From: Pseudaquabacterium terrae
GTDB taxonomy: Bacteria > Pseudomonadota > Gammaproteobacteria > Burkholderiales > Burkholderiaceae_C
Reading direction: 5' to 3'
Assembly (NCBI RefSeq): GCF_013266755.1
Contig: NZ_JABRWJ010000001.1
Span: 62,001 to 126,000 of the forward strand
DNA length: 64,000 nt
Position numbers and translations under genes: made by a program
The notes under the pieces: model-generated
Told to the model about the DNA's origin: nothing
Seen by the model: only the letters and a program-made list of their open reading frames with translations
The model's database searches: none
Part shown: piece after piece, positions 6,484 to 56,431 of the stretch
How the letters are laid out: the number at the start of each line of letters is the position of its first letter
Numbering within the stretch: position 1 is the stretch's first letter

Positions 6484-7644
6484 ATGCGCCATGCCGTCAC
6501 CGCCCTCGCGCTCGCGCTCGCGGGCACCCTCATCACCGCCAACGCCGCCACCATCGGCCTGATGGCCCCGTTGTCCGGCCCGCAGGCCCTCGTCGGCCAG
6601 GACCAGGTCGACGGCTTCATGCTGGCGCTGGAGCAGCTCGGCGGCAAGCTCGGTGGCCAGCCCGCCAGCGTGCTGAAGGAGGACGACCAGCTCAAGCCCG
6701 AGACCGGCCAGCAGATCGTGCGCAAGTTCATCGACAAGGACAAGGTCGACGCGATCGTCGGCCTGAGCTTCTCGAACGTGCTGATGGGCAGCCTGCCGCG
6801 CCTGGCCGAATCGGGCACGGTTGCGATCGCCACCAATGCCGGCCCGTCGCCGATCGCCGGCGCCCAGTGCAAGGCCAACGTCTTCTCGGTGGCCTGGCAG
6901 AACGACGGCGCGGCCGAAGCGATGGGCACGTTCGCGCAGGAGCGCGGCGTCAAGCGCGTCTACCTGATGGCGCCGAACTACCAGGCCGGCAAGGACATGC
7001 TGGCCGGCTTCAAGCGCTTCTTCAAGGGCGAGGTCATCGGCGAGACCTACACGCAGGTCAACCAGGCCGACTACGCGGCCGAGCTGGCGCAGCTGCAGGC
7101 CGCCAAGCCCGACGCGGTGTTCGTCTTCTATCCCGGCGGCATGGGCGTCAACTTCGTCAAGCAGATGGGCCAGGCCGGCCTGTCGGCGAAGCTGCCGCTG
7201 TACTCGGTGTTCACCGTCGACGGCACGACGCTGCCTTCGCTGCGCGAAGCGGCCGCCGGTACGATCAGCGGCGCGATGTGGGATGCGGCGCTCGACACGC
7301 CCGGGAACCGCAAGTTCGTCACCGCCTTCGAGGCCAAGTACAAGCGCACGCCGAGCGAATACGCCGCCACCGGCTACGACGCGGCGAACCTGCTCGATGC
7401 GGCACTGCGCAAGCTCGGCGGCAAGTCGGGCGACGCCAAGGCGCTGGCCGCGGCGGTGAAGGCCGCGGGCAGCGAGTTCAGCTCGGTGCGCGGGCCCTTC
7501 CGCTTCAACAACAACAACCTGCCGGTGCAGAACTACTACGCCTTCGAAGCCGCGAAGGACAACGGCAAGCTCGCGGTGCGGCAGATCGGCACGCCGCTGA
7601 AGGCGCACGCCGACGCGTACCACGGCCAGTGCCCGTTGAAGTGA
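6484..7644 (+). CDS. ABC transporter periplasmic binding protein, branched-chain amino-acid type
   Basis: A 386-residue precursor with a clear Sec signal peptide ending near ANA (about residue 21), followed by the LivK-type opening TIGLMAPLSGPQALVGQDQVDGF. The family (Peripla_BP_6) delivers amino acids, amides or aromatic acids to LivHMGF-type permeases. Lying 76 bases behind nagAb on the same strand, it is most likely a binding protein for salicylate or a related aromatic acid; that ligand is inferred from context only. AAGGAG precedes the ATG. Confidence 0.82.
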   Translation: MRHAVTALALALAGTLITANAATIGLMAPLSGPQALVGQDQVDGFMLALEQLGGKLGGQPASVLKEDDQLKPETGQQIVRKFIDKDKVDAIVGLSFSNVLMGSLPRLAESGTVAIATNAGPSPIAGAQCKANVFSVAWQNDGAAEAMGTFAQERGVKRVYLMAPNYQAGKDMLAGFKRFFKGEVIGETYTQVNQADYAAELAQLQAAKPDAVFVFYPGGMGVNFVKQMGQAGLSAKLPLYSVFTVDGTTLPSLREAAAGTISGAMWDAALDTPGNRKFVTAFEAKYKRTPSEYAATGYDAANLLDAALRKLGGKSGDAKALAAAVKAAGSEFSSVRGPFRFNNNNLPVQNYYAFEAAKDNGKLAVRQIGTPLKAHADAYHGQCPLK

Positions 7645-7650
7645 GCGGCC

Positions 7651-8571
7651 ATGAGTCTGACGCTGCTCTTCGCGCAGCTGCTGAACGGCCTGCAGTACGG
7701 CGTGCTGCTGTTCCTGCTGGCGGCCGGGCTGACGCTGGTGTTCGGGATCATGAGCTTCGTGAACCTCGCGCACGGCTCGCTGTACATGCTGGGCGCCTAT
7801 GCGGGCGCGGTGGCCTACGGCGCCAGCGGATCGTTCGTGCTCGCGGTGCTGGCGGCGGCGGCCAGCGCGCTGCTGCTGGGACTTGTGCTCGAGCTGACGG
7901 TGGTGTCGCGGCTGTACCGGCGCGATCACCTCGACCACGTGCTGGCCACCTTCGGGCTGGTGCTGTTCTTCAACGAGCTGGTCCGCCTGGTCTGGGGGCC
8001 GCAGCCGTACTTCGTGCAGGTGCCGCAAGTGCTGTCGGGCACCGTCGAGCTGCTGGGCTTCAGCTATCCGTCGTACCGCTTCGCGATCATCGCGGTGGGG
8101 CTGCTGGTCGCGCTGGGCTCGTACGCGCTGATCCACAAGACGCGGCTGGGCATGCTGATCCGCGCCGGCGCGCAGAACCCGCAGATGGTGGGCGCGCTGG
8201 GCGTCAACATCCGCCTGCTCAATGCGCTGCTGTTCGGGCTCGGCGCGATGCTCGCCGGCGTGGCCGGCGCGATGGCCGGGCCGATCCTGTCGGTGCAGTC
8301 CGGCATGGGCGAGCCGGTGTTGATCACCACGCTGGTGGTCATCGTGATCGGCGGCATCGGCTCGGTCAGCGGCGCGTTCTATGCGTCGCTGATCGTCGGC
8401 CTGGTCGACACGCTGGGCCGCGCGTTCCTGCCGATGGCCTTGCGGCAGGTGGCCGAGCGCTCGCTCGCCGACGCGGCCGGCCCGGCGCTCGCATCGATGA
8501 GCGTGTACCTGCTGATGGCGCTCGTGCTGGCCTGGCGGCCGCAAGGGCTCTTTCCGGCGCACCGGGGGTGA
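7651..8571 (+). CDS. ABC transporter permease, LivH type
   Basis: A 306-residue inner-membrane permease with about eight hydrophobic segments. It has the LivH-type opening LLNGLQYGVLLFLLAAGLTLVFGIM and the loop GMLIRAGAQNPQMVGALGVN, which corresponds to the EAA-like coupling region. It is 6 bases downstream of the binding-protein gene and would form the heterodimeric channel with the LivM-type partner that follows. Confidence 0.85.
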   Translation: MSLTLLFAQLLNGLQYGVLLFLLAAGLTLVFGIMSFVNLAHGSLYMLGAYAGAVAYGASGSFVLAVLAAAASALLLGLVLELTVVSRLYRRDHLDHVLATFGLVLFFNELVRLVWGPQPYFVQVPQVLSGTVELLGFSYPSYRFAIIAVGLLVALGSYALIHKTRLGMLIRAGAQNPQMVGALGVNIRLLNALLFGLGAMLAGVAGAMAGPILSVQSGMGEPVLITTLVVIVIGGIGSVSGAFYASLIVGLVDTLGRAFLPMALRQVAERSLADAAGPALASMSVYLLMALVLAWRPQGLFPAHRG

Positions 8572-8572
8572 A

Positions 8573-9570
8573 GTGATGATGTCCAAGCTGATTCGACCCG
8601 GCACGCTGCTGCCGCTGCTGCTGCTCGCAGCGCTCGGCGTGCTGCCCTTCGCGGCCACGGCGCTCGAGCAGCCGTTCTGGATCGCGTTCTTCGCGCGCAT
8701 CGTGATCTACGCGATCGCCGCCACCGCGTTGAACCTCGCGCTCGGCTACGGCGGCCTCGTCAGCTTCGGCCACGCGCTGTTTCTCGGCCTCGGCGCTTAC
8801 GCGGTCGCGCTGCCGTCGTTCCACGAGGTCGGCAGCGGTGTCGTGCACCTGCTGGTCTGTCTGGCGGTGTGCGGCTTCGCGGCGCTGGTGACCGGGATCA
8901 TCAGCCTGCGCACCTCGGGCATCGCCTTCATCATGATCACGCTGGCCTTCGCGCAGATGGGCTACTTCCTGCTGGTCAGCCTGAAGCACTACGGCGGCGA
9001 CGATGGCCTGTCGATCACCCACACCAGCCGCTTCGGCGCGCTGAACCTCGGCTCGCCGCTGGCGGTGTACGGCGTGGCGTTCGTGGTGCTGGTGCTGGCC
9101 ACGTGGTGGTTCGCACGGCTGCGCATCGCACCGTTCGGCATGGCGCTGCGCGGTGCGCGCCAGAATCCGCGCCGCGTCAACGCCATCGGCCTGCAGGCGC
9201 TGCGCGTGCAGCTCGTCGCCTACGTGCTGTCGGGCATGTTGTGCGGCGTGGCCGGGCTGCTGCTGGCCAACTTGAACGCCTACGCCTCGCCCAGCACGCT
9301 GGCCTGGACGGTCTCCGGCGAGCTGATCGTGACGGTGGTGCTGGGCGGCATGGGCAGCGTGTGGGGGCCGCTGCTGGGCGCCCTGGTATTCCTCGGCCTC
9401 GAGGAGGTGCTCAAGGGCTGGACGGAGCACTGGATGATCGTGTTCGGGCCGCTGATCGTGCTGATGGCGCTGGCCGGCAAGCAGGGCCTCGCCGGCTGGC
9501 TGCAGCGGCTCGATGGGCTGCGGCCGGCGCCCCTGCCCGCCGCACCGGTCATCGCCCCGGGAGACGCGTG

Positions 9571-9571
<1 letters not shown>
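8573..9571 (+). CDS. ABC transporter permease, LivM type
   Basis: A 332-residue permease of the LivM family. It has the characteristic NLALGYGGLVSFGHALFLGLGAYA segment near residue 50 and RLRIAPFGMALRGARQNPRRVNAIG as the coupling loop. The first possible start is GTG 8573, with ATG 8576 and 8579 close behind; the exact choice does not change the protein. The C terminus is a proline- and alanine-rich tail. The stop overlaps the next start (9569-9571). Confidence 0.85.
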
Positions 9572-10317
<746 letters not shown>

Positions 10318-10327
10318 GGGCGCGACG

Positions 10328-11056
10328 ATGAGTGCCTTTCTTTCGGTGCAGGGGCTGCAGGCCGGCTATGGCCGCGCGCAGGTGCTGTTCGACGTCTCGC
10401 TCGAGGTCGAGCCGGGCCAGGTGGTGACGCTGCTGGGCCGCAACGGCATGGGGCGCTCGACGACGGTGAAGTGCCTGTTCGGCCTGCTCGCGGCGAGTGC
10501 CGGCCGGATCGTCGTCGGCGGCACGCAGGTGCTGGGCGAGGCACCGCACCGCGTCGCGCGGCGCGGCCTCGCGCTGGTGCCCGAAGGCCGGCAGATCTTC
10601 ACCGGCCTGACGGTCGAGGAGAACCTGGTCGCCACCGCGCGCGGCGCACAGCCGCGCGACTCGCGGCCCGGCGCCTTGCGGCCGTGGACGCTGGAGCGGA
10701 TCTACGGCTTCTTCCCCCGGCTGCAGGAGCGGCGCGGCAACCTGGGCTGGCAGCTGTCGGGGGGCGAGCAGCAGATGCTGGCGATCGGCCGCGCGTTGAT
10801 GACCAACCCGCGGCTGCTGGTGCTCGACGAGGCCACCGAGGGGCTGGCGCCGGTGATCCGCGAAGAGATCTGGCGCACGCTGGCGGAGCTCAAGCGGGAG
10901 GGCCTGGCGCTGATCGTCATCGACAAGAACATCGGCCATTTGCTGCGCCTGGCCGATCGGCACCACGTGATCGAGAAGGGCCGGATCGTCTGGCAGGGCG
11001 ACTCCGATGCGCTGCGGGCGCAGCCGCAGATCGTGCATCAATACCTCGGCGTCTAG
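10328..11056 (+). CDS. ABC transporter ATPase, LivF type, with Arg in Walker A
   Basis: A 242-residue LivF-type ATPase with signature LSGGEQQM and Walker B LLVLDEATEG. The Walker A loop reads GRNGMGRSTT, so the usual phosphate-binding lysine is arginine (codon CGC near 10455). The switch position reads LIVIDKNIGH, with Lys-Asn in place of the usual Glu-His. The partner LivG-type ATPase keeps its lysine and its switch histidine, so one site of the ATPase pair may be degenerate. Similar Arg variants may exist in other LivF proteins, so this need not be a defect. It closes the operon. Confidence 0.82.
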   Translation: MSAFLSVQGLQAGYGRAQVLFDVSLEVEPGQVVTLLGRNGMGRSTTVKCLFGLLAASAGRIVVGGTQVLGEAPHRVARRGLALVPEGRQIFTGLTVEENLVATARGAQPRDSRPGALRPWTLERIYGFFPRLQERRGNLGWQLSGGEQQMLAIGRALMTNPRLLVLDEATEGLAPVIREEIWRTLAELKREGLALIVIDKNIGHLLRLADRHHVIEKGRIVWQGDSDALRAQPQIVHQYLGV

Positions 11057-11110
11057 GGTGTCCCGGACCCGGCCTGCGGGGCGCCGGGCCGCGGTCCCCG
11101 ACAATCCCGC

Positions 11111-12514
11111 ATGACCGAACGTTCCCCTGCCCCACCCGCGGGCCGCGCTTTCCAGGACCTTCCCCTCTCCCCGGCCGTGCTGGAAAACCTGCAGCGGCTG
11201 GGTTACGAGCAGATGACGCCGATCCAGGCGGCCAGCCTGCCCTTGGCGCTGGCGGGCAAGGACCTGATCGCGCAGGCCAAGACCGGCAGTGGCAAGACGG
11301 CTGCCTTCGCACTGCCGCTGCTGGCCAACCTGAACCCGCGGCACTTCGCGGTGCAATCGCTCGTGCTCTGCCCCACGCGTGAGCTCGCCGAGCAGGTGAC
11401 GCAGGAGATCCGGCGCCTGGCCCGCGCCGAGGAGAACATCAAGATCATCACGCTGTGCGGCGGCGCGACGATGCGCCCGCAGCTCGCCAGCCTGGCGCAT
11501 GGCGCGCACGTGGTGGTGGGCACGCCGGGCCGCATCCTCGACCACCTGGCGCGCGCGAGCCTGGCGCTGGACGCGTTGAACACGCTGGTGCTCGACGAAG
11601 CCGATCGCATGCTGGACATGGGCTTCGCCGACGACATCGCCACCGTGATCGGCCACTGCCCGAAGCAGCGCCAGACGCTGCTGTTCTCGGCCACCTATCC
11701 CGACGACGTGATGAAGCTGGCCAGCCGCTACCTGCGCGAGCCGCAGGAAGTGAAGCTGGCCGAGCGTCACGCGGCCACCAAGATCCGCCAGCGCTTCTAC
11801 GAGGTGAAGGACAGCGAGCGCCTGCACGCCGTGGGCCTGCTGCTGAACCACTACCGGCCGGTCAGCACGCTGGCCTTCTGCAACACCAAGCAGCAGTGCC
11901 GCGACCTGGTGGCCGTGCTGCAGGCCGAGGGCATCGTCGCGCTCGAGCTGCACGGCGACCTGGAGCAGCGCGAGCGCGACCAGGTGCTGGTGCAGTTCGC
12001 CAACCGCAGCTGCAGCGTGCTGGTGGCCACCGACGTGGCCGCGCGCGGGCTCGACATCGCGCAGCTCGAAGCGGTGATCAACGTCGACATCACGCCCGAG
12101 GCCGAGCTGCACACGCACCGCGTCGGCCGCACCGGCCGCGCCGACGAAGCCGGCTGGGCCTTCAACCTGGCCAGCATGGACGAGATGGACCGCGTCGGCC
12201 GCATCGACCAGATGCAGGGCAGCGACAGCGTCTGGCACCACCTGAACGAGCTGACGCCGGCGGACGCCGAGCCGCTGCACCCGCCGATGACGACGCTGCA
12301 GATCCTCGGCGGCCGCAAGGAAAAGATCCGCCCCGGCGACGTGCTGGGCGCGCTGACCAAGGACCACGGCTTCCAGGTCGAGCAGATCGGCAAGATCAAC
12401 ATCAACGAGTTCTCGACCTACGTGGCCGTCGAGCGCGGCATTGCCAAGGAGGCGCTGCGCAAGCTGAACAACGGCAAGGTGAAGGGCAAGACGGTGAAGG
12501 CGAGGTTGCTTTGA
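11111..12514 (+). CDS. dbpA: ATP-dependent RNA helicase DbpA
   Basis: A 467-residue DEAD-box helicase. The Q motif is GYEQMTPIQ, motif I is AKTGSGKT, motif II is VLDEADRMLDMGF, motif III is SAT, motif V is ATDVAARGLD and motif VI is HRVGRTGRA. The C terminus (about residues 395-467) contains KIRPGDVLGAL, diagnostic of the DbpA RNA-recognition domain that targets hairpin 92 of 23S rRNA. DbpA assists late 50S ribosome assembly. A second DEAD-box gene overlaps its stop. Confidence 0.92.
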   Translation: MTERSPAPPAGRAFQDLPLSPAVLENLQRLGYEQMTPIQAASLPLALAGKDLIAQAKTGSGKTAAFALPLLANLNPRHFAVQSLVLCPTRELAEQVTQEIRRLARAEENIKIITLCGGATMRPQLASLAHGAHVVVGTPGRILDHLARASLALDALNTLVLDEADRMLDMGFADDIATVIGHCPKQRQTLLFSATYPDDVMKLASRYLREPQEVKLAERHAATKIRQRFYEVKDSERLHAVGLLLNHYRPVSTLAFCNTKQQCRDLVAVLQAEGIVALELHGDLEQRERDQVLVQFANRSCSVLVATDVAARGLDIAQLEAVINVDITPEAELHTHRVGRTGRADEAGWAFNLASMDEMDRVGRIDQMQGSDSVWHHLNELTPADAEPLHPPMTTLQILGGRKEKIRPGDVLGALTKDHGFQVEQIGKININEFSTYVAVERGIAKEALRKLNNGKVKGKTVKARLL

Positions 12515-38005: not shown

Positions 38006-38054
38006 ATGTCGGAACCCTGAGCGGGCTGCCGCGGGGAGTGGATGCGATGCGTCG
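38006..38054. repeat. Direct repeat B flanking the chemoreceptor gene
   Basis: Partner of the repeat at 35986-36033. It still contains a remnant of the end of the cupin gene (ATGTCGGAAC, then CCTGA) ahead of the phosphatase start, so it marks the other edge of an insertion or duplication. Confidence 0.8.
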
Positions 38055-38613
38055 ACGTGCACTGATGATCGTGGCCGCGGCCACACCCTGGCCCGCCCGC
38101 GCCACCACCGAGGACGACATCGCCGCGCGGCTGGCGGCCGGCGGCGCCGTCATGGCGTTCCGCCACGCGCTGGCACCGGGAACCTACGATCCACCCGGCT
38201 TCCGCCTCGACGACTGCAGCACCCAGCGCAACCTCAATGATCAGGGGCGCGCGCAGGCGCAGCGCATCGGCGAGTGGTTCCGCCGCCGCGGCCTCGTGCC
38301 GGCGGCGGTGCGATCGAGCCCGTGGTGCCGCTGCCTCGACACCGCGCGCCTCGCGTTCGGCCGCGCCGACCCGTGGGCGGCGCTCGGGTCGCCGCGTGCC
38401 GCTGCCGATGCGGCGAGTGACGCCAGCGGGGACGGATTGCGGCGCGCGCTCGTCGCAGCGACGGCGCGGCGCGGCCGCTTCGAGGTCTGGGTGTCGCACC
38501 AGTTCGTGCTGTCGGCGCTCGTCGGTGGCGCCACGGCGTCGGGCGAGGGGCTGCTGCTGGACGCCGCATCGGACGGCACGCCGCGGATCCTGGGCCGCCT
38601 GGCGATCGAGTGA
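38047..38613 (+). CDS. Histidine phosphatase-family protein
   Basis: A 188-residue histidine phosphatase with an N-terminal leader (MRRRALMIVAAATPWPARA) that looks like a signal peptide. The catalytic motif is FRHALAPGT, with alanine in place of the usual glycine of RHG, and the second active-site histidine is in WVSHQFVLSAL. Substrate unknown; proteins of this group dephosphorylate small molecules or proteins in the periplasm. ATG 38047 is the start shared with the damaged copy at 46658. Confidence 0.78.
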   Translation: MRRRALMIVAAATPWPARATTEDDIAARLAAGGAVMAFRHALAPGTYDPPGFRLDDCSTQRNLNDQGRAQAQRIGEWFRRRGLVPAAVRSSPWCRCLDTARLAFGRADPWAALGSPRAAADAASDASGDGLRRALVAATARRGRFEVWVSHQFVLSALVGGATASGEGLLLDAASDGTPRILGRLAIE

Positions 38614-38659
38614 CCACAGCGGGCGCAGGCCAAGCGGGCTCCGTCGGCGGGAGCGCCGC

Positions 38660-38726
38660 TCATCGCAGATGCCAGCGCAACGGCTTGGTCGTCTCCCGCG
38701 TGATGACGCCTTTCGCCTCCAGATCG
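38660..38726 (-). pseudogene. Remnant of the small wHTH-like gene found at 46984-47202
   Basis: The minus strand encodes only the last 22 codons (DLEAKGVITRETTKPLRWHLR then stop), matching the end of the 72-residue protein at 46984-47202. Homology stops abruptly at about 38726, just before the LysR promoter. It shows that the duplicated segment extends past the phosphatase gene. Confidence 0.75.
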
Positions 38727-46630: not shown

Positions 46631-46657
46631 GCGGGGTGCCGCGGGGGAGTGGAAACG

Positions 46658-46939
46658 ATGCGTCGACGTGTCCTGATGATCGTGGCCGCGGCGACACCGT
46701 GGGCGACGCTCGGGTCGCCGCGGGCCGCTGCCGAGGCGGCGAGTGACGCCAGCTCGGACGGGCTGCGGCGCGCGCTCGTGGCGGCCACGGCGCGACATAG
46801 GCGGTTCGAGGTGTGGGTGTCGCACCAGTTCGTGCTGTCTGCGCTCGCCGGAGGCAGCACGGCGTCGGGCGAGGGATTGTCGCTGGAGGCGGCGTCGGAC
46901 GGCACGCCGCGGATCCTGGGCCGCCTGGCTATCGAGTGA
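46658..46939 (+). pseudogene. Histidine phosphatase copy with an internal 285-bp deletion
   Basis: This copy matches the gene at 38047-38613 at both ends but lacks 95 internal codons (copy-one positions about 38092-38376). The deletion is in frame and joins TPW to the later region at a short TGG repeat. The lost part carries the catalytic RH motif, while the second active-site His (VWVSHQFVLSAL) remains, so the protein cannot be active. About ten amino-acid changes show that it is decaying. Confidence 0.82.
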
Positions 46940-46983
46940 TCAGCGGGCGCGGGCCAAGCGGGCTCAGCCGGCAGGCGCGCCGC

Positions 46984-47202
46984 TCATCGCAGCAGGTGCC
47001 AGCACAACGGCTTGGTCTTCTCCGGCGTGATGAGACCTTTGGCCTCCAGATCGAGCTGCACGCCCTTCTTCCACCAACCGGCCTTGGCGCCTTGCGGAAA
47101 CAGCGCCTGCGGCAGATGGGGCAGCACGCGCTCGCCGATCTCCGCGGCCGTCAAGCCCGGTGAGGTGGCCGGCAGGACCTTCAGGAAGGCCTGATTTTTC
47201 AT
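46984..47202 (-). CDS. Small winged-helix-like protein
   Basis: A 72-residue basic protein: MKNQAFLKVLPATSPGLTAA at the start, WWKKGVQLDLEAKGLITPEK near the end. The spacing resembles a winged-helix fold with a wing at the end (KPLCWHLLR). I know similar short proteins in Burkholderiales but no function. ATG 47202 is the likely start. Only its end survives in the other copy at 38660-38726, so this is the intact version. Confidence 0.55.
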   Translation of the reverse strand: MKNQAFLKVLPATSPGLTAAEIGERVLPHLPQALFPQGAKAGWWKKGVQLDLEAKGLITPEKTKPLCWHLLR

Positions 47203-47386: not shown

Positions 47387-48685
47387 ATGAAGTACTTGGA
47401 ACGCAAGCGCAGGTGTTTCGTCGTAATGCCGTTCGGCGAAAAGAAGGATCCGGACGGCAAAGAAATCGACTTTGACGACATCTATCGATTCTTCTTCAAG
47501 AGGGCGATCGAGGACCTCGGCATTGAGTGCATCCGATGCGACGAGATCGAGGAAGCTGGCTCAATCCACGAGAAGATGTTTGAGCACATCTATCAGGACG
47601 ACATCGTTGTTGTGGACATCACGACGTCGAATGCCAACGTCTACTACGAGCTCGGCATCCGGCACGCGCTGGCAAAGGGCGTAACGGTGTTGATTCGCCG
47701 GAAGGGAACGGTGATACCGTTCAATATTCAAGGCCTACAAGTCATCGAATACGATCAGGACAGGTTCGCGAGCATTGAGCAGGCCAAGAGCCGTATTCGC
47801 GAAATCATTCGCAATGGCCTCCTGCAGCGGCGCAACGACAGCCCGGTTCATTCAGTGCTGGATCTGAACATCGAACCGGAAGGCAATCCTGTCGACAGCA
47901 CCGTGATCCTCGAGTGGTGCCTGAAGGATAGGGAGGACATTCGCGTCGGCCTGGTCACAGGAGACATTCAGAACGTGACGGGAATCGACGTCTGGGTGAA
48001 TCCCGAGAACACGAACATGCAAATGGCGCGGCCGTTCGAAAACTCGATTTCCGGCATCATTCGTTATCTGGGGGCCGAGAAGGATCTGGACAACGGGCAA
48101 GTCAGGACCGATACGATCGCTTTAGCGCTGGCAGCCAAGATGAATGGCAGAACGACGGTCGATCCTGCCACCGTGCTAACAACGACTTCCGGCGCGATGG
48201 AGAGTACGCATCGCGTCAAGCTGATCTTTCATGCGGCTGCCAACTACGGCCAGGTAGGCCAGGGCTACATACCAATCGACCAGGTGTCTCGCTGTATCGT
48301 GAACGCACTCAAGGCGCCAGTGGAAGACACTAGATTGGGGGACAATTCGTCGATCCTCTTCCCGCTCATGGCCACACGGTCGCGGAAGGGCGCCGTTCTT
48401 GAAGACCGGGTCAGACCATTGTTGAATGCTGCCATCGAGTTCTTTGTGAGGAACCCGGGGGGTACGTTCCGCAGGGCCTACTTTCTCACCTACACCGACA
48501 AGGAACTCGACGTGTGTCAGGAACTCCTGACCTCCGACGAGCGCTTGATTGCGCAACCCGAGCTTCGGACCAAAGTAGTTGACCTGGCCGCCGATACGCC
48601 CGTGTCCCGAAGGCCGGGCTTGGGAAGGGTCGCCGGAGTGGAGATCGAAATGCCAGGAGTCGCGCCGGACACGGAGACGGCGTGA
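47387..48685 (+). CDS. TIR-like/deoxyribosyltransferase-like plus macro domain protein
   Basis: A 432-residue two-domain protein. Residues 8-110 are a Rossmann-like domain of the MPFG family (CFVVMPFGEKKD, then IHEKMFEHIYQDDIVVVDIT with Asp77, then NANVYYELGIRHAL with Glu88), as found in TIR-like, NDT-like and ASK1-associated proteins. Residues 185-350 look like a macro domain: VTGDIQN, WVNPENTNMQMA, VLTTTSGAM and VKLIFHAAA. Such domains bind or hydrolyse ADP-ribose derivatives. The gene overlaps the SIR2 gene downstream (GTGA), so the two proteins probably act together. Lower GC than the flanks suggests transfer. Family placement of the macro part is by eye only. Confidence 0.68.
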   Translation: MKYLERKRRCFVVMPFGEKKDPDGKEIDFDDIYRFFFKRAIEDLGIECIRCDEIEEAGSIHEKMFEHIYQDDIVVVDITTSNANVYYELGIRHALAKGVTVLIRRKGTVIPFNIQGLQVIEYDQDRFASIEQAKSRIREIIRNGLLQRRNDSPVHSVLDLNIEPEGNPVDSTVILEWCLKDREDIRVGLVTGDIQNVTGIDVWVNPENTNMQMARPFENSISGIIRYLGAEKDLDNGQVRTDTIALALAAKMNGRTTVDPATVLTTTSGAMESTHRVKLIFHAAANYGQVGQGYIPIDQVSRCIVNALKAPVEDTRLGDNSSILFPLMATRSRKGAVLEDRVRPLLNAAIEFFVRNPGGTFRRAYFLTYTDKELDVCQELLTSDERLIAQPELRTKVVDLAADTPVSRRPGLGRVAGVEIEMPGVAPDTETA

Positions 48686-50871
48686 AGCATCAATCTCCAT
48701 GTCCAGGCACGAGCCTAGGTATCGAGCTAAGTGAAGACGCTCTTGCCGTCGATACGTGGCCAGCGCTACTTGAGCGACTCCGGAAGTCGGAGCCATATGC
48801 CATCCTGTGTGGTTCGGGAATCTCCTTCCGGTCTGGCCTGCCTACGGGCCACTCCTTCAACGAGACGTTTCTGCAGGATTTGGTCCTGCCCCAGTATCGC
48901 TCACGGGTCTCTGAGCATCTCAAGCCCGATGCCTCGGTATCGCTTCGCTTCGAAGGCATTCTAGACGTATGGTCTAGATTCGACCCGGCGTTACGAGTCC
49001 TCGACACATACCGGCTCGGCACGCCGACCAGCGAACATCGTGCTCTGGCGCGGCTCGCCGAATCACATGCCATTGTGACGACAAACTTCGACGGGCTCAT
49101 CGAGCGCTCATGGGCCTGCCCGCGGGACCTCCCGGTGGCGTGCACTGATGAGCAGTTTCTGCCTGAGCCAGGCGATGGTGGACTTTACAAGATCCATGGG
49201 ACGGTTCAGCGCGTTGTGAATGGATGCCCTCAGGACGTCGCAAGTCTCGATGGATCGTTTTGTATCGCCACGCTTGGCACGATCTCCAGCAACATGGAGT
49301 CCATTCCACGGCGCAATTTTCTTCACTGTCTGCGTCGGTCGCGACCACTCGTCGTCGTCGGTTACTCCGGCATGGACGACTTCGATGTTTGCCGCTGGTT
49401 GTTCGACACCGACTCGCCGAAGGCATTGGTGTGGATCGCTTATGACGAGAATGCCGAGAGCACGACGGTGCTCTCGGGACGAGAAGCCATCGATCTGAAG
49501 GTCGCGCCACGTCCAATCATGCGTCGCAAAGCGGACCGCAACGTCGTCAATACATCAACTATCGTTCGGACTCGCAGCCCGGCCAAGCTGCTTGCTGACC
49601 TGTCGGGCGAACCGTACGACGACAAGAGCTGGGGCAGCAAAAAGTTGGAATGGGGCGCGACATGTCTGTGGCAGCGGTCACTCGCTACTGCGCTGCTGCT
49701 GCTTCAGCTATCGTTGTTCCATGAGGCAGAGAACCTGTTGCGCGGTCTCCTCCAAAACGTCGAAGGCCCGCTGCGCGGCCATGATGACGACCTTGCGCTG
49801 TCACCTGCCCAGCAAACCTGCGCGCAGGTATACCTCGCACAGGCACTGATGCCAACCGGAGAACGGCGCAAGCGCCGGGAGGCGTTGGAGATCGCCGAAG
49901 CCGCTGCCGACTCCGGCCTCCTTGAGCCCGCGCTACTCTTGCGAGCAAGGTTCCTCGCGACGCAGGCCCGCTTCCACACGAGCCACATGTCTGCGAGTGC
50001 CCTGGGTGATTCTTTGGCAAATCTCTACGTGCAGGCCAAAGCGTGTGACGCTCCGGCGCTCGCCGCCGAGCTTGCTGCGGACATCGCCGTTTTTGGCCGG
50101 CAGCAGGCACGCACGCATCGCGCGATGTACTCAGCGTTTGAGGCTGCACTGGATGGAGGCAGCCTTTCCGCCAAGGGCACCAGGCTCCACGAAGACGCGC
50201 GCCGCAAGTGGTCTGCCTGCGGGAGTCCTGAAGAGCTCTCCCTGGCAATCAGTGACATGGAGGAAGTGGTCACCTTTCGCCGCGACCTTGGGCAGTTGGA
50301 TGGCCTGTGCGCGAGCCTCAACGTCTGCGGCGGTATGCGGCAGCGCTTGGCAGAATGGACTTCGCCGATGGAGCCAGACTACGGTGCAGCGATCCAGTAC
50401 CACAACGAGAGTCTCCGCTTAGCCGCCAATGCCCACCTTTTCTGGCATCAATCACAGGCTCTGATCGATCTTGGGTACATTCATGCGAAGAGTGCCGATG
50501 CCGCTCGACTCAAGGCCACAATCGAGGAACTGAACGTTCTATGCGAAATCCTGGATGAATCGGACCGACACCACATGGAGTTCCTTGCCGCCTATGCTCG
50601 CGTCATCGCCAAAGATCTCACGGCCGCGAAAAGGAGGTTCGAGAAGCTCATCGACTTGCCTGAATCGGCCAAGCTCGGCGCTCGCATGAGAGACGCGGCG
50701 AGATTCAATGCAGCAGTTTGCCGGGCCGCGCTGACCGCCGGTCTTCCGGGCCCACCGGAATTGCCACCTTCCCACCGTTGTGTTCGTTTCTGGGAGGATC
50801 GTTTCGTCCGCCATACCCTGTACGTGCCGATTGTGTCGACGCTGATCGATCCGCTTCCGCCTTCGAACTAA
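48682..50871 (+). CDS. SIR2-domain protein with helical C-terminal domain
   Basis: A 729-residue protein. Residues 30-240 form a SIR2 NAD-binding fold: GSGIS (44-48), TTNFD (133-137, Asn135), the catalytic His172 in KIHGTV and GYSGMDD (227-233). The remaining 450 residues are alpha-helical and TPR-like. Defence SIR2 proteins (ThsA, DSR2) use the Asn and His to hydrolyse NAD and stop phage growth. Both residues are present, so NADase activity is expected. GTG 48682 overlaps the stop of the upstream gene. GC in a sampled line is about 57%, against about 72% in a neighbouring gene. Confidence 0.8.
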   Translation: MKHQSPCPGTSLGIELSEDALAVDTWPALLERLRKSEPYAILCGSGISFRSGLPTGHSFNETFLQDLVLPQYRSRVSEHLKPDASVSLRFEGILDVWSRFDPALRVLDTYRLGTPTSEHRALARLAESHAIVTTNFDGLIERSWACPRDLPVACTDEQFLPEPGDGGLYKIHGTVQRVVNGCPQDVASLDGSFCIATLGTISSNMESIPRRNFLHCLRRSRPLVVVGYSGMDDFDVCRWLFDTDSPKALVWIAYDENAESTTVLSGREAIDLKVAPRPIMRRKADRNVVNTSTIVRTRSPAKLLADLSGEPYDDKSWGSKKLEWGATCLWQRSLATALLLLQLSLFHEAENLLRGLLQNVEGPLRGHDDDLALSPAQQTCAQVYLAQALMPTGERRKRREALEIAEAAADSGLLEPALLLRARFLATQARFHTSHMSASALGDSLANLYVQAKACDAPALAAELAADIAVFGRQQARTHRAMYSAFEAALDGGSLSAKGTRLHEDARRKWSACGSPEELSLAISDMEEVVTFRRDLGQLDGLCASLNVCGGMRQRLAEWTSPMEPDYGAAIQYHNESLRLAANAHLFWHQSQALIDLGYIHAKSADAARLKATIEELNVLCEILDESDRHHMEFLAAYARVIAKDLTAAKRRFEKLIDLPESAKLGARMRDAARFNAAVCRAALTAGLPGPPELPPSHRCVRFWEDRFVRHTLYVPIVSTLIDPLPPSN

Positions 50872-50934: not shown

Positions 50935-53508
50935 TTACGGCCGCTGCACAGCCCCCAACCCAAGTTCCGCCACCTCCCCATCCGCCAACGATCTCCCCTG
51001 CTCCATCAGCGCCTCCAGCGCCGCCGCATCCCACACCGTGCGCAACAGCTCGAGCGTGTGCTCGTGCGCACGCTGCTCGTTGACCTGCCGCTGCTCGTCC
51101 GCCGCTTCGTAGCGCGCCGTGGTGGCCCCGACGAGCCGCGCCGCGGCTTCGTGGCGGCCTTCCAGCGCGGCCAGTTGAGCCAGATAGCCGACGCACCAGG
51201 CGTGCAGCGGAACACGCATTGCGGCCGGCAAGGCCTCCTGCAGCAGCAGCCGCGCGGGCTGCGTCTGGTGAAGCATCAAATGCGCCGCGGCCAGGTTGAC
51301 GCGCGCGAAGACCATCAGGTTCTCGTTGCGCATGCTGCGTATCAGCGCCACCAGCCGCGTGCCGCTGGCCACTGCCGCCGCGGCGTCGCCGGAACTCAGC
51401 TCGGCGTTGGCGATGTTCAACTGCGTTGTCAGGCCGGAGTCGCCGGCGGCGTGGCCCACGTCGAGCAGGCGGCGGTACAGGCGCAGCGCCTCCTGCACTT
51501 CGCCGCGCGCGGTCGCGATGCTCGCCTGCACGCGCAGGCCTGGCAGCAGCCGCACCGGCGGCCAGTTCGGGTCCTCGAGCGTGCGCGCTTCCTGCACCAG
51601 CCGCTCGGCCGCCGCCGCATCGTCGTCAACGAGCATCTGGCCGGCGGCGCACAGCGCGTCGTATAGCGCGTAGCGGTCAGGCCGGGTGGCATCCAGCGTG
51701 CGCGCCAGCGCCAGCGCGTGCTGCGCCGCCACCAGGCTGCGGTGGGGCCGCATGTTGGCCAAGGACACGCTGATCTCGCGCCAGGCCTCGTACAGCGTGA
51801 CGGAGTCCAGCGGCTCGCCGGCTTCACCGCTGGCCGCGATCAGGTGCTCGCAGCGGTCCGCCAGGGCCAGGCGCTCGCCATTCAAGGCGGCCGGCATCAT
51901 CGCGCTGGCCAATGCCAGTTCCAGGGCCGGCATCCCGGCCCGGTTCACGTGGGCCAGCGCGGCGCGGGCGTTGTCCATCTCCAGCTCGCCCTGGCGCCGC
52001 CGATCCTGTACGCCGAGCTTGCCGGCATGCAAGGCCGCACGGGCAGCACCCAACTCGGCCAGCACGCCTTGTGCGAAGCGCAAGTGCAGGTCGCCTTCTT
52101 CACCCGCGGCGGCCAGTTGCTCGAGCGCCAAGGCACGCGGCGACTCGAGCAGCCGATAGCGCGACGGGCTGCGTCCTTCGGCATGCACCACTTCGACCAG
52201 CGAGCGCTGGATCAGCTGGTCCAGCGCGTCGACGATGGCCCACGGATCAGCGGACGGGTCGCCATCCGCCCCGGTGCCCACGTGCTGCACCAGGCTCAAC
52301 GAAGCGCTGCCGGCGACCACGGCGAGCCGCCGAAACAGCTGCTGCTCGAACGGTGCCAGCAGGCCCACGCTCCAGGCCAGCGCCGCGCGCAGGCTTTGCT
52401 GTCGTGCCGGCGCCAGGCGGTTGCGGTTGGTGTTGAAGACTTGCAGGCGATCGGTGAGTGAATGCAGCAGCTGCGCCATGCCCAGTGCGGGCGCCCGCGC
52501 CGCGGCCAGCTCGATGGCCAGCGCCACGCCGTCCAGGTGCTGGCACAGCTCGATCACGGCGGGCACCTCGGCATCGTCCAGCACGAAGCGGTGGTCGGCC
52601 GCCGCTGCGCGCTCGCAGAACAGGGCCACGGCGCCGAAGGCCTGGGCCTGCTGCGCGGGCAGCGTGCCTTGCGGAATCGCCAGCGGGCCCAGACGGAACA
52701 CGCGTTCGGGCGCCAGCCGCAGCGGCGCCTGGCTGGTGGCCACCAGGCGCAGCCCCGGTTCCGCGTCCAGCAGGGCCTGCGCCAGGCGGGCCACGTCGTC
52801 GAGCAGGTGCTCGGCGTTGTCCAGCGCAATGAGCATCTGCAGCCCGACCACCGACCGCGCCAGGTGGGCCAGCGCGTCGCCGGGCGCCGACTGCAGGCCC
52901 AGCGCCGCCGCCACGGCCAGCGGCAAGGCTTCGGGCGTGGTGACGTTGCCCAGCTCGACCCAGCACACGCCTTGCGGATAGGCGTTTGCTCGCATCTGCA
53001 TCAGGGCCTGCACCAGGCGCGTCTTGCCCATGCCGCCGGCCCCCACCACCGTGACCAGCCGGTGCTGGTCGATCAAGGTGCCCAATGCCGCCAGGTCGTC
53101 GCTGCGGCCGATCAGCAGCGGCTGCAGCGTGGGCAGGTTGGTGCGCGGCCGGGAAGGCACTGCCTCCGCCACGGCCGCGGCGGCAGGCCCGGTCGGCGCA
53201 TGCGGCGCGACAAAGCGGTAGCCGCGCCCCGGCACGGTCACCAGCCAGTCGCTGCCCAGCACCTTGCGCAAGGCGTTGACCTGCACGGTCAGGTTGTTCT
53301 CTTCGACCACGCGACTCGGCCAGACCTGCTCGATCAGCTCGTTGCGGGTGATCAGTTGCCCTGGGCGTTGCACGAGGGCCAGCAACAGGTCGAAAGCGCG
53401 GCCGCCCAGCGGCACGGGGTGCCCGTCGGCCAGCAGGCGGTGCTCGTGCGGCCGAAGCTCGAAACGGCCAAAGCGCAGGCCCTCGGGCAGCGGTGTGGTG
53501 TTCGACAT
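50935..53508 (-). CDS. Winged-helix DNA-binding regulator with STAND ATPase and TPR
   Basis: An 857-residue regulator. Residues 10-100 are an OmpR-type winged helix (AFDLLLALVQRPGQLITRNEL, then VNALRKVLGSDWLVTVPGRGYRF). An ATPase follows with P-loop GAGGMGKTR (155-163), Walker B MLIALDN and, later, a helical TPR-like tail. Such proteins resemble CadC-HTH/AfsR-type regulators. ATG 53508 is chosen because the winged helix starts there. It is divergent from the globin operon and is its probable regulator. Confidence 0.85.
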   Translation of the reverse strand: MSNTTPLPEGLRFGRFELRPHEHRLLADGHPVPLGGRAFDLLLALVQRPGQLITRNELIEQVWPSRVVEENNLTVQVNALRKVLGSDWLVTVPGRGYRFVAPHAPTGPAAAAVAEAVPSRPRTNLPTLQPLLIGRSDDLAALGTLIDQHRLVTVVGAGGMGKTRLVQALMQMRANAYPQGVCWVELGNVTTPEALPLAVAAALGLQSAPGDALAHLARSVVGLQMLIALDNAEHLLDDVARLAQALLDAEPGLRLVATSQAPLRLAPERVFRLGPLAIPQGTLPAQQAQAFGAVALFCERAAAADHRFVLDDAEVPAVIELCQHLDGVALAIELAAARAPALGMAQLLHSLTDRLQVFNTNRNRLAPARQQSLRAALAWSVGLLAPFEQQLFRRLAVVAGSASLSLVQHVGTGADGDPSADPWAIVDALDQLIQRSLVEVVHAEGRSPSRYRLLESPRALALEQLAAAGEEGDLHLRFAQGVLAELGAARAALHAGKLGVQDRRRQGELEMDNARAALAHVNRAGMPALELALASAMMPAALNGERLALADRCEHLIAASGEAGEPLDSVTLYEAWREISVSLANMRPHRSLVAAQHALALARTLDATRPDRYALYDALCAAGQMLVDDDAAAAERLVQEARTLEDPNWPPVRLLPGLRVQASIATARGEVQEALRLYRRLLDVGHAAGDSGLTTQLNIANAELSSGDAAAAVASGTRLVALIRSMRNENLMVFARVNLAAAHLMLHQTQPARLLLQEALPAAMRVPLHAWCVGYLAQLAALEGRHEAAARLVGATTARYEAADEQRQVNEQRAHEHTLELLRTVWDAAALEALMEQGRSLADGEVAELGLGAVQRP

Positions 53509-53544
53509 GGCGGCGGGCAGTTTAGGAGCTGCTGCCGGCTCACG

Positions 53545-53560
53545 CTTAATCATTTTTAAG
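53545..53560. promoter_or_regulatory. Inverted repeat in the regulator-globin divergent promoter
   Basis: CTTAA and TTAAG (TTAAG at 53556-53560) flank 6 bases. It is AT-rich in an otherwise GC-rich gap and is a candidate site for the winged-helix regulator or for polymerase. Confidence 0.45.
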
Positions 53561-53632
53561 TCCGCCTGAAGGTGCTTTCCCGGCTGCGTCGGAACACTGG
53601 CTTCACCTTCACCCCCCTCGCGGAGCCGTTCG

Positions 53633-54091
53633 ATGCAAGTCGCCATGACCCCCCAGCAGATCCAGCTCGTGAAATCCACCTGGCAGCAGGTGCTGCCGAT
53701 CCAGGCCGCCGCAGCGGATCTTTTCTACGGCCGCCTGTTCGAGCTGGCGCCAGACACCCGGCCGCTGTTCAAGCGCGACATCCACGCCCAGGGCGCCATG
53801 CTGATGAGCACGCTGGACACGGTGGTGCGCAGCCTGCACGACCTGGGCGCCGTGTTGCCCACGGCCCGACAGCTGGCGCGGCGCCACGTCGGCTACGGCG
53901 TGCAGCCGCAGCACTACGACAGCGTCGGCACGGCCCTGGTCTGGACCCTGGAACAAGGCCTGGGCGCGGCGCTGACGCCGGCCGCCCGCGATGCCTGGCG
54001 CATGGCCTACGAGGCGCTGGCCGATGCGATGAAGGCCGCGGCCTATCCCGCCGATGTGGCTGACTCCGCTGCCGTTCGGGAGGCCGCATGA
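53633..54091 (+). CDS. Single-domain globin
   Basis: A 152-residue globin of the flavohaemoglobin/neuroglobin-like group, without reductase domain. The proximal haem ligand is His85 in ARRHVGYGVQPQHYD, and the E-helix region is HAQGAMLMSTLDTVV. It may bind O2 or NO. ATG 53633 is chosen, and 53645 is also possible. It is first in an operon with a Spy-like and a serine hydrolase gene. Confidence 0.87.
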   Translation: MQVAMTPQQIQLVKSTWQQVLPIQAAAADLFYGRLFELAPDTRPLFKRDIHAQGAMLMSTLDTVVRSLHDLGAVLPTARQLARRHVGYGVQPQHYDSVGTALVWTLEQGLGAALTPAARDAWRMAYEALADAMKAAAYPADVADSAAVREAA

Positions 54092-54510
54092 AGCCCGCCC
54101 GTTCTTCCTGGGCCCAAGTGGTGTATGCCACCGTCGTCGCGACGCTGGCATTGGCCCAACCGGCCCTGGCCGATGAATCGCTGGAGACCGCGCTGGGCCT
54201 GAGCCGGGACCAGGCGCATGCGGTCATGGCCATCGAGAAGACTTACCGCCTCGAATTCGCCGCCAAGCGTGGCGACTTCAACCGCGAGAGCCGCGTCTTG
54301 CGCCGCGCGCACATCGCCCGCGACAGCAGCGCCATCGCCAAGCAGGAGCCTGTCGTGGCTGCGCTGCAGCAGGAGCTGCGCAAGATCCACGCGGCCGAGA
54401 ACGAAAAGATCCGCGCCGTGCTCACGCCCGCTCAACGCACGCGGTTCGAGACCGTGCTCGAGCAGCGCAAGGCCATGCACGGCAGTTCACGCGACGAGCG
54501 GCTGTTCTGA
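54088..54510 (+). CDS. Spy/CpxP-like periplasmic protein
   Basis: A 140-residue protein with a signal peptide ending in ALADE (about residue 29) and a mature all-helical part that includes the LTPAQRTRFETVLEQR motif typical of Spy/CpxP LTxxQ proteins. Members act as periplasmic chaperones or metal-linked sensors. The start overlaps the globin stop (ATGA). Confidence 0.7.
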   Translation: MKPARSSWAQVVYATVVATLALAQPALADESLETALGLSRDQAHAVMAIEKTYRLEFAAKRGDFNRESRVLRRAHIARDSSAIAKQEPVVAALQQELRKIHAAENEKIRAVLTPAQRTRFETVLEQRKAMHGSSRDERLF

Positions 54511-54568
54511 AAGCCGTCGCCCCATGAACGCCCACCCGCACTCAACCATTGCTTCGGGAGCTCCCGAC

Positions 54569-56431
54569 ATGTCTTCGCCCACGCATCCCACCCGCGCGCC
54601 GATCGGCAGCAAACGCCTGTGGACCGGCCTTGCCGCGGCCGCCGCGCTGGCCGTCACGCTGCCGGCCCACGCCTCCGATCTGGTCGGCAGCGACCCGATC
54701 GCACTGACCCGCACGTACCACGGCTCCGACGGCAGCGTGTTCTCGACACGCGCCATCGGCAACACCGTGGTCGGTTTCAGCCAGGATGCGAGCGGCCAGC
54801 GCGCGTTCGTCTTCAACGGCACGCGCTCCGGCATGACGATCACCGGCCAGGTCTACGGCCTGCCCAAGGGCGCCAGCACGCAGCAGGGCCCGCTGAATCT
54901 GACGCTGTCCAACGGCGGCTCGACGCTGCAGCGCACCAGCGGCGAGAACGTCGGTGCGACGACCTGGATCGCCAAGCTGCCGAGCTCGTTCGCCTTTCCG
55001 CACGGCCGCGAGGCGAAATTCCAGTCCACGATGGCCGACGACCTCGACGGCGCCTACCAGGGCTCCGACGGCAGCCGGGCCTACGTGCGCCAGTACGGCG
55101 CGACCGTGGTGACGATGACCGAGCGCTTCGCTGACGCCGATGCGACGCGTCCGGTCTATGCCACCGTCGGCATCGCCACGCGCACGGGCAACGGCCTGGT
55201 CGGCAGCTTCTTCGACCTGCCGCACCAGACCGCCAACCTCAGCGCCGGCCAGTTCATCGGTCAGAAGTCGCCCGCCGCGCGCGACTTCCTGCAGACGCTG
55301 AGCATCCCGGTGCCGGGCTACCCGCCGTTGCGGCAGGTGGTCTATACCGCCGATTACGCGGTGGATCTCGACCGCTTCGCGCAGGAGATCGAGACCCGGC
55401 TGACGCCCTTCGTCGTCGGTTTCAGCTACGCCATCGCGCAGAACGGCCAGGTGCGGCGCACCGGCGCCGGCGGGGCGCGCCGCGCGGTGACCGCCACGAA
55501 TGGCCTGTTGGGGCCGCTGCCGTTCACCGACAACACGCTCAGCGTGATGGCCAGCACCACGAAGACGGTGACGCTGGTCGCGATGCTGCGCGCGCTGCGC
55601 GATCGTGGCGTGTCGGTGGATGCTGCCGTCGGGCCCTACCTGCCGCAGCCCTGGGCGCGTGGACCGGGCATGAACACCGTCACCTTCCGCCAGCTGCTGT
55701 CGCACGGGCTGACGCCCACGGTCGGCAAAGGCCTGCACTACCCGGCCAGCTGCGCGAACAGCCCGTACCTCTGCCTGCGCGACGCGGTGGCCGGCGGCAT
55801 GGTGCGTGATGCCGGCTACCACAACATCCACTACGCGCTGATGCGCTACCTGCTGCCCTACGTGCTGGATCCGGTCGGCGTGACGAACCTGTTCCTGTAC
55901 GAGCCGAGCGAGACGGCACGCAACGAGGAGATGAGCAAGCGCTTCCGCAAATACATGCTCGACATGCTGAAGGAGGTCGGCGTCGATGCCGACTTCAAGT
56001 ACGTCTACGGCGACGGCGAGAACGGTGCCTACCGCTACCAGTGGGGCACGCCGCCGACCGACGAGATCTATCCCTGGATCGCCGACAGCGAGGACGACTA
56101 CCTGGAAGCCGGCCCGGGCGGGCTGAAGATGACGTCCAAGGAGTACGCGCGCTTCCTGTCCAAGCTGGTCAACGGCGCGCTGCTGACGCCCGCGGACCTG
56201 GCCGCCGCGAAGGCCATCGGCTTCGGCGGCGAGGCGCCGGCGATGAACGGCCCCGACGGCGTCGGCCCGCTGTACACGAAGAACGGCGGGGCCGGTGGCG
56301 CGGCGACGCAACTCGTGGTGTACCCAGGCACCGAGGTGTTCATCTCGCAGAACTCGACGGGCAACGAGGCGCAGACCAACAACGCGGCGATGCTGCGGGC
56401 GGCGTGGAAGGCGTCGCTGATCGGGCAATGA
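54569..56431 (+). CDS. Exported serine hydrolase, beta-lactamase class C-like
   Basis: About 620 residues. A signal peptide (LWTGLAAAAALAVTLPAHAS) is followed by a beta-rich N-terminal region (about 30-270) and a beta-lactamase/DD-peptidase-like domain with the catalytic SxxK (MASTTKTVTLV, Ser-Thr-Thr-Lys). The third motif region reads KNGGAGG. The usual second Tyr-x-Asn motif is not clear (HYALMRYLL may take its place), so a true beta-lactamase is unlikely; an esterase or peptidase role is possible. ATG 54569 follows GGGAG, and ATG 54524 is an alternative. Confidence 0.72.
   Translation: MSSPTHPTRAPIGSKRLWTGLAAAAALAVTLPAHASDLVGSDPIALTRTYHGSDGSVFSTRAIGNTVVGFSQDASGQRAFVFNGTRSGMTITGQVYGLPKGASTQQGPLNLTLSNGGSTLQRTSGENVGATTWIAKLPSSFAFPHGREAKFQSTMADDLDGAYQGSDGSRAYVRQYGATVVTMTERFADADATRPVYATVGIATRTGNGLVGSFFDLPHQTANLSAGQFIGQKSPAARDFLQTLSIPVPGYPPLRQVVYTADYAVDLDRFAQEIETRLTPFVVGFSYAIAQNGQVRRTGAGGARRAVTATNGLLGPLPFTDNTLSVMASTTKTVTLVAMLRALRDRGVSVDAAVGPYLPQPWARGPGMNTVTFRQLLSHGLTPTVGKGLHYPASCANSPYLCLRDAVAGGMVRDAGYHNIHYALMRYLLPYVLDPVGVTNLFLYEPSETARNEEMSKRFRKYMLDMLKEVGVDADFKYVYGDGENGAYRYQWGTPPTDEIYPWIADSEDDYLEAGPGGLKMTSKEYARFLSKLVNGALLTPADLAAAKAIGFGGEAPAMNGPDGVGPLYTKNGGAGGAATQLVVYPGTEVFISQNSTGNEAQTNNAAMLRAAWKASLIGQ

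Follow-up and report, generated by a model that had tools for sequence, protein, structure and literature searches.

What might a bacterium do with two overlapping genes, one joining a TIR-like enzyme to a macro domain and the other encoding a SIR2 protein, and does such a pair recur elsewhere as one system? The pair in question lies at 47387..50871 in a stretch of 64,000 nucleotides from Pseudaquabacterium terrae (contig NZ_JABRWJ010000001.1, positions 62,001 to 126,000), the whole of which we call the window. An earlier note, made from the sequence alone, had read it as a candidate defence operon acting on nicotinamide adenine dinucleotide (NAD). In our analysis the observation itself is confirmed and its interpretation partly supported: the first gene belongs to a family found in nine phyla, whose recurrent partner appears from sequence to be a NudF-like ADP-ribose pyrophosphatase and not a SIR2 protein. 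For the window we tentatively favour, though at somewhat less than an even chance, a conflict system of two genes that works through NAD, follows a Thoeris-like logic and has an exchangeable effector; in it gene 1 would handle the signal and the SIR2 protein would be the effector.

Gene 1 (47387..48685, forward strand, ATG start, with AGGAGG just 5' of it) encodes the TIR/DrHyd-like and macro protein of 432 amino acids, DrHyd being a name taken from the literature; gene 2 (48682..50871, forward strand, GTG start) encodes the SIR2 protein of 729 amino acids. As the note had claimed, the two overlap by four bases, and the GTGA at 48682..48685 on the forward strand, which holds both stop and start, makes translational coupling probable. 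Their lower G+C content is equally evident: 0.567 in gene 1 and 0.601 in gene 2, whereas the 41 other window genes that encode 150 amino acids or more average 0.696 and none falls below 0.606. At third codon positions gene 1 has 0.73 and gene 2 has 0.67, the other window genes averaging 0.88, and the value of gene 1 is not under the lowest of these (0.72). This base composition fits acquisition of both genes as a unit, and the four-base overlap together with the shared low G+C suggests co-transcription and co-transfer. The rearranged duplicate said to lie beside the pair was found again: 38033-38668 recurs in direct orientation, about 86-90% identical and shortened, at 46644-46992, just upstream of the pair. 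Synteny with a genome of the same genus (G371) is restricted to 50995-56424 of the window and ends 124 bases past the SIR2 stop codon, which places the pair at a break in synteny. An exact empty site in that genome was rejected, because the left flank did not align anywhere in the 19 kb compared, and the insertion therefore cannot be bounded. A promoter and terminator scan of the locus gave nothing above chance.

The N-terminal part of the gene 1 product (residues 9-147; 47411..47827, forward strand) is an MPFG-type TIR/DrHyd-like domain with Glu88 at the putative catalytic site. It matches the PADLOC model 'Effector, TIR' (E-value 1.6e-9), and its nearest solved sequences are Rcl/DNPH1 (0.0015), which bears out the TIR-like or NDT-like domain described before; the Pfam matches, to CAP12-PCTIR_TIR (0.029) and Nuc_deoxyrib_tr (0.21), are both below cut-off. 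Glu88 is invariant in all 19 aligned proteins, the window's included. From the sequence match and this conserved glutamate the protein is assigned to the TIR/DrHyd class, and its N-terminal domain fits the TIR-DrHyd-SLOG class as described in the available part of PMC9503650. The MPFG domain is common with other C-termini. At an E-value of 1e-5, gene 1 is matched in 25 of 369 class-sample genomes, the window's own included, and in the other 24 over the N-terminal part; the same threshold gives 78 plasmid records (TRAFs-binding proteins by annotation in 37 of the 40 listed) and 44 phage records (the 30 listed all match over the N-terminal part). These plasmid and phage records include Staphylococcus, Klebsiella, Streptococcus and others, and the phage proteins among those listed are hypothetical, unannotated or without a feature.

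Residues 173-396 (47903..48574, forward strand) form a divergent macro domain. The C-terminal sequence of the window protein alone has no Pfam or PADLOC match up to an E-value of 10, and the macro fold that the note suspected is supported by three other results: a relative at locus L044 (the loci of our scan carry L numbers) passes the Pfam Macro cut-off (1.1e-6); a profile of 24 family members matches macroH2A (9.5e-8); and an AlphaFold2 model of gene 1, built with 19 sequences, has macroH2A1.1 as its best Foldseek match in the PDB (E-value 1.8e-9, template modelling (TM) score by target 0.73, and up to 0.79 for another macroH2A entry). The model has a predicted local distance difference test score (pLDDT) of 76.7 and a predicted TM score of 0.60, and is poor at residues 212-218 and 332-335, the two presumed binding loops. 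From profile and model, the C-terminal part is predicted to belong to the macro domain superfamily and, because of these best matches, is judged to be an ADP-ribose-binding domain of macroH2A type rather than a hydrolase of MacroD type. The presumed second ADP-ribose-binding loop (residues 329-331; 48371..48379, forward strand) reads ATR in the window, where the family profile alignment places the GSG of macroH2A; a GxG, common at this position though not absolute, is present in macroH2A and in 21 of the 24 aligned members. From the alignment and the description of ThsA, this loop may well be the phosphate-binding one. The available text of Shi et al. 2024 (PMC11204291) gives ThsA two ADP-ribose-binding loops, the second with residues contacting the pyrophosphate, and by analogy we infer that ATR lies in the counterpart of that second loop. 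The conserved GxG after the second strand of macro domains, mentioned in the accessible portion of PMC9503650, may be another loop.

Gene 2 carries a SIR2_2-type domain at about residues 31-260 (boundaries approximate; 48772..49461, forward strand), with GSGIS at residue 44 and with Asn135 and His172 intact; these two residues, like Glu88 of gene 1, are present as had been stated. The Pfam match to SIR2_2 (PF13289) spans residues 130-236 (1.7e-8; 35.1 bits, above the cut-off of 24.5), and the PADLOC matches are to candidate or known SIR2 defence families, namely PDC-S65 (6.3e-9), SIR2-pAgo (1.1e-5) and ThsA (1.5e-4). The proposal of a Thoeris-like protein lacking SLOG agrees with a Pfam scan of gene 2, which gave no SLOG match up to an E-value of 10. 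The C-terminal region (residues 314-721; 49621..50844, forward strand) had been described as a helical, sensor-like tail. It is probably all-helical and has no family assigned, its DAHL match (0.028) being below the Pfam cut-off; a helical trend at most is seen in the sole model of gene 2, a single-sequence one with a pLDDT of 40, and the sensor-like character was not confirmed. By sequence, gene 2 appears close to an orphan. Relatives were found in none of 298 other genomes of the family and none of 397 others of the phylum, at thresholds of moderate sensitivity and with the best three (family) or best two (phylum) candidates per genome scored, a procedure that would miss distant ones. One distant match, confined to the SIR2 region (32.7% identity over 26% of the query), lies on a Thioclava plasmid, where 12.6 kb of context holds no macro, TIR-like or Nudix profile match. 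The genome of the window has two further SIR2_2 matches (8.8e-18 and 7.2e-12) at G000:C1:459322-460746 (L001, L002), each in a 701-residue open frame and perhaps parts of one tandem double-SIR2 protein; the 18 kb around them has no MPFG, macro or Nudix profile match.

Whether the pair recurs was asked of the gene 1 family, which one scan of genome contigs placed at 23 loci in Pseudomonadota, Cyanobacteriota, Chloroflexota, Bacteroidota, Acidobacteriota, Planctomycetota, Actinomycetota, Myxococcota and the archaeal phylum of Methanothrix. The scan looked for two peptide patterns of the macro part and so missed members that lack them; genes at the loci were predicted with a home-made caller. A relative of gene 2 occurs at none of the 23 (phmmer, E-value 0.01), and a conserved pair of DrHyd-macro and SIR2 genes was therefore rejected; together with the family and phylum searches for gene 2 given above, this gives no support to the reading of the two genes as a recurrent operon. 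What does recur is a Nudix gene, directly 5' of the family gene and in the same orientation at 11 of the 23 loci in six phyla (L043, L044, L045, L047, L048, L049, L051, L052, L053, L055 and L058; that of L055 was found by six-frame search and not by the gene caller), with gaps that range from -14 to +55 bases for the start codons assigned. A profile of ten of these partners is closest to the E. coli ADP-ribose pyrophosphatase (1g0s; 3.8e-43) and matches 12 of the 323 called genes at the loci, ten directly upstream and two elsewhere. The literature searched, seen in part, holds no description of a DrHyd-macro and NudF family, and one may exist.

The family is rare and its distribution very patchy. 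Counting the window's own genome each time, it is present in two of 21 genomes of the genus, in one of 399 of the family and in two of 398 of the phylum, the other being a distant transmembrane-macro protein (in the family and phylum samples the best seven candidates per genome were scored, so that distant relatives would be missed; the class, family and phylum samples, those used for gene 2 included, overlap). Eighteen of the 23 loci encode MPFG-macro proteins and two (L057, L059) TPR-MPFG-macro proteins; at the other three (L044, L045, L046) the TIR-like domain gives way to two membrane helices, the arrangement known from the ThsA of type II Thoeris. A distant transmembrane-macro protein (3.6e-15) at L080:5120-6593, in a genome of the class, is followed by a gene that looks nucleotidyltransferase-like by eye.

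Other neighbours are more varied. At eight of the 23 loci (L040, L044, L048, L051, L053, L060, L061, L062) a Pfam TIR gene is no more than four genes away, on the opposite strand at L040 and L048; L060 and L062 are from one genus, and the count covers the part of the neighbours that was scanned. Among the matches listed, an isochorismatase-family (nicotinamidase-like) gene stands directly downstream at two of the 23, L060 (by Pfam) and L062 (by 81% identity). In a PADLOC scan at an E-value of 1e-5, covering 88 neighbour proteins (mostly one to four genes per side, L040 +2 and a few others being left out), single members matched ThsB (1.2e-42), PtuA of Septu (3.9e-169), PD-T4-6 (9.4e-106) and a type IV restriction enzyme (3e-62), which places some loci of the family among defence-like genes. 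That scan listed the 25 commonest of 172 families, and the family scan that showed two isochorismatase-family members likewise listed its 25 commonest, so a single SIR2 neighbour could be hidden in the rest. By its gene content L044 appears to be a dense conflict-type locus: at 6540-12459 its two-helix macro gene stands between upstream TIR-EAD11, FRG and Nudix genes and a downstream gene for a patatin-like phospholipase. Three loci have, next to the DrHyd-macro gene, a radical SAM gene and after it a gene for a TIR-FGE-sulfatase fusion (L051:6455-8518, L053:6390-8458 and L061:2089-4157), and the PADLOC scan gave viperin matches for four of the 88 neighbours. Besides its DrHyd-macro protein, locus L055 encodes another DrHyd/MPFG protein (L055:4418-6874), which carries TPR-S and MAP3K TRAFs-binding domains.

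The closest relatives of the window's gene 1 are those of L040 (Variovorax) and of L041, which comes from a metagenome-assembled genome of Burkholderiaceae and lies on the same contig as G380/L036. The three form a clade with 100/100 support and a long stem of 0.92 changes per column, and none has a Nudix neighbour. Their neighbours differ: the SIR2 gene overlaps downstream in the window, genes for a CHAT protease and a calcineurin-like phosphoesterase lie upstream in L040 across a gap of 217 bases, and a gene for a DUF900 alpha/beta hydrolase lies upstream in L041 across one of 86 bases. In the system that we favour, the DrHyd/TIR-like domain with its invariant Glu88 would respond to infection by cleaving NAD or a related nucleotide, the product would be bound or gated by the fused macro domain, and gene 2, a SIR2 NADase restrained by its C-terminal region, would act as terminal effector, depleting NAD and aborting the infection. 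The pyrophosphatase of the Nudix-bearing relatives would clear the ADP-ribose product and so set a threshold. Within the window's clade this arrangement would have given way to gene 1 plus a lineage-specific effector and a macro pocket of changed specificity, the effectors being the SIR2 protein in the window, the CHAT protease in Variovorax and possibly the alpha/beta hydrolase in the Burkholderiaceae genome. Catalysis, ligand, activation and phage protection all belong to what we infer here. Thoeris effectors, in the part of PMC12847820 available, likewise vary: SIR2 in type I, transmembrane-macro in type II and caspase-like in type IV. It is this variety, with the SIR2 and CHAT genes beside members of the clade and the replacement of DrHyd by two membrane helices, that favours reading the SIR2 protein as effector.

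Several findings weigh against that reading. The pair of DrHyd-macro and SIR2 genes is known from one genome only; the two closest relatives of gene 1 have no adjoining SIR2 gene, and the gaps before their neighbours make these weaker partners. A Pfam scan of ten flanking window genes found no TIR and no obvious defence family. The macro part has no match in the plasmids, phages and viral contigs searched, unlike many mobile defence systems. All three clade members, moreover, have ATR in place of the GxG that the other 21 of 24 keep; with the presumed binding loop changed in this way, simple sensing of ADP-ribose is less likely. Sensing or editing of an ADP-ribose product by the macro domain, as proposed, suits the family, but in the window's clade the role of the domain may be altered.

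The same evidence can be arranged otherwise. Sensing could fall to the macro domain and the effector role to the DrHyd/TIR-like domain, so that gene 1 alone would be a ligand-gated NADase or nucleotide hydrolase, comparable to the transmembrane-macro ThsA, a ligand-gated membrane effector, and the SIR2 protein a signal maker or second effector. The alternation of two membrane helices and DrHyd in one N-terminal slot ahead of the same macro domain speaks for this, as do the TIR genes, potential signal makers, near eight of the 23 loci and the macroH2A-like, that is binding, type of the best structural match; the Nudix gene adjoins both kinds of protein and does not discriminate. With no TIR gene among the ten flanking genes scanned and the GxG of the presumed binding loop lost in the window, we regard this arrangement as rather unlikely. 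Some SIR2 proteins act alone, and gene 2 could be such a single-gene defence protein acquired alongside a gene 1 that works by itself or with partners encoded in trans. That no locus of the family has a gene 2 relative, and that the G380/L041 contig has gene 1 without SIR2, agrees with a one-off adjacency; the four-base overlap and the shared low G+C, suggestive of co-transcription and co-transfer, make it distinctly unlikely.

A role outside defence would be housekeeping salvage or repair, in which NudF-like, macro and DrHyd proteins clear ADP-ribose adducts or damaged nucleotides. The pyrophosphatase partner, the isochorismatase-family neighbour at two loci and the lack of macro-family matches in the phages, plasmids and viral contigs searched would all suit it. 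We consider it less likely still in view of the patchy distribution described above (in the phylum one of the two is a distant transmembrane-macro protein), of the association with CHAT, TIR, SIR2 and transmembrane segments and some defence-like neighbours, and of the DrHyd domains reported in conflict systems in the available parts of PMC9503650, PMC7159879 and PMC8195603. Returning to the two-gene conflict system, a bolder extension, which we hold to be unlikely as it stands, would make DrHyd-macro the core of an undescribed bacterial and archaeal family of NAD signalling: one chain would make and bind the signal, a NudF-type pyrophosphatase would reset it, and the Burkholderiales branch would have swapped the reset enzyme for exchangeable suicide effectors (SIR2, CHAT) with a re-shaped macro pocket. 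If true, the re-shaped pocket and the swap predict a new signal molecule, and the family would reveal, within a single compact locus, how bacteria and archaea produce an NAD signal, detect it and turn it off. As a natural experiment, the clade of the window would let one follow how receiver pocket and neighbour genes change together.

How the pair relates to known systems can now be stated. Macro-sirtuin (SirTM) operons have an ADP-ribosyltransferase sirtuin and a GcvH-like gene, and MacroD has a GGG loop. Gene 2 matches SIR2_2 instead, the macro domain of gene 1 is fused to DrHyd and has no GGG loop, and no GcvH-like gene was seen among the ten flanking window genes scanned; the likeness is that macro and sirtuin are encoded together, as in the systems named in the available part of PMC9503650. 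CBASS does not apply, the Pfam scan of these ten genes having found no CD-NTase. The DrHyd/MPFG proteins with TPR-S or MAP3K TRAFs-binding domains share a homologous MPFG domain (plasmid copies are about 42% identical to gene 1 across 35% of its length), whereas their C-terminal part is TPR-S or TRAFs-binding and that of gene 1 is macro. Type I Thoeris (SIR2-SLOG ThsA with TIR ThsB) resembles the pair in placing a TIR-like gene beside a SIR2 gene with intact Asn and His, and was rejected because the Pfam scan of gene 2 showed no SLOG; in addition, gene 2 is only distantly ThsA-like, and the macro domain sits in the TIR-like partner. Type II Thoeris (transmembrane-macro ThsA with TIR ThsB; His-ADPR, IAD or ADPR as signals) was rejected as well, since gene 1 has no transmembrane stretch by hydropathy and no match to the PADLOC ThsA macro models, which two relatives match weakly (0.0012 and 0.0025). 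The window has no separate ThsB, its partner is a SIR2 protein, and the GxG of loop 2 is lost. In Thoeris the makers and receivers of the signal are separate, whereas in the gene 1 family a single chain would combine an enzyme of TIR/DrHyd-like type with a macro receiver. Type II nevertheless shares with gene 1 a macro domain fused to an N-terminal domain, and three relatives of gene 1 are themselves two-helix macro proteins. The ThsB subfamilies tied to transmembrane-macro ThsA have NDT/DNPH1-like active sites according to the available text of PMC11204291, and the N-terminal domain of gene 1 is likewise nearest to Rcl/DNPH1.

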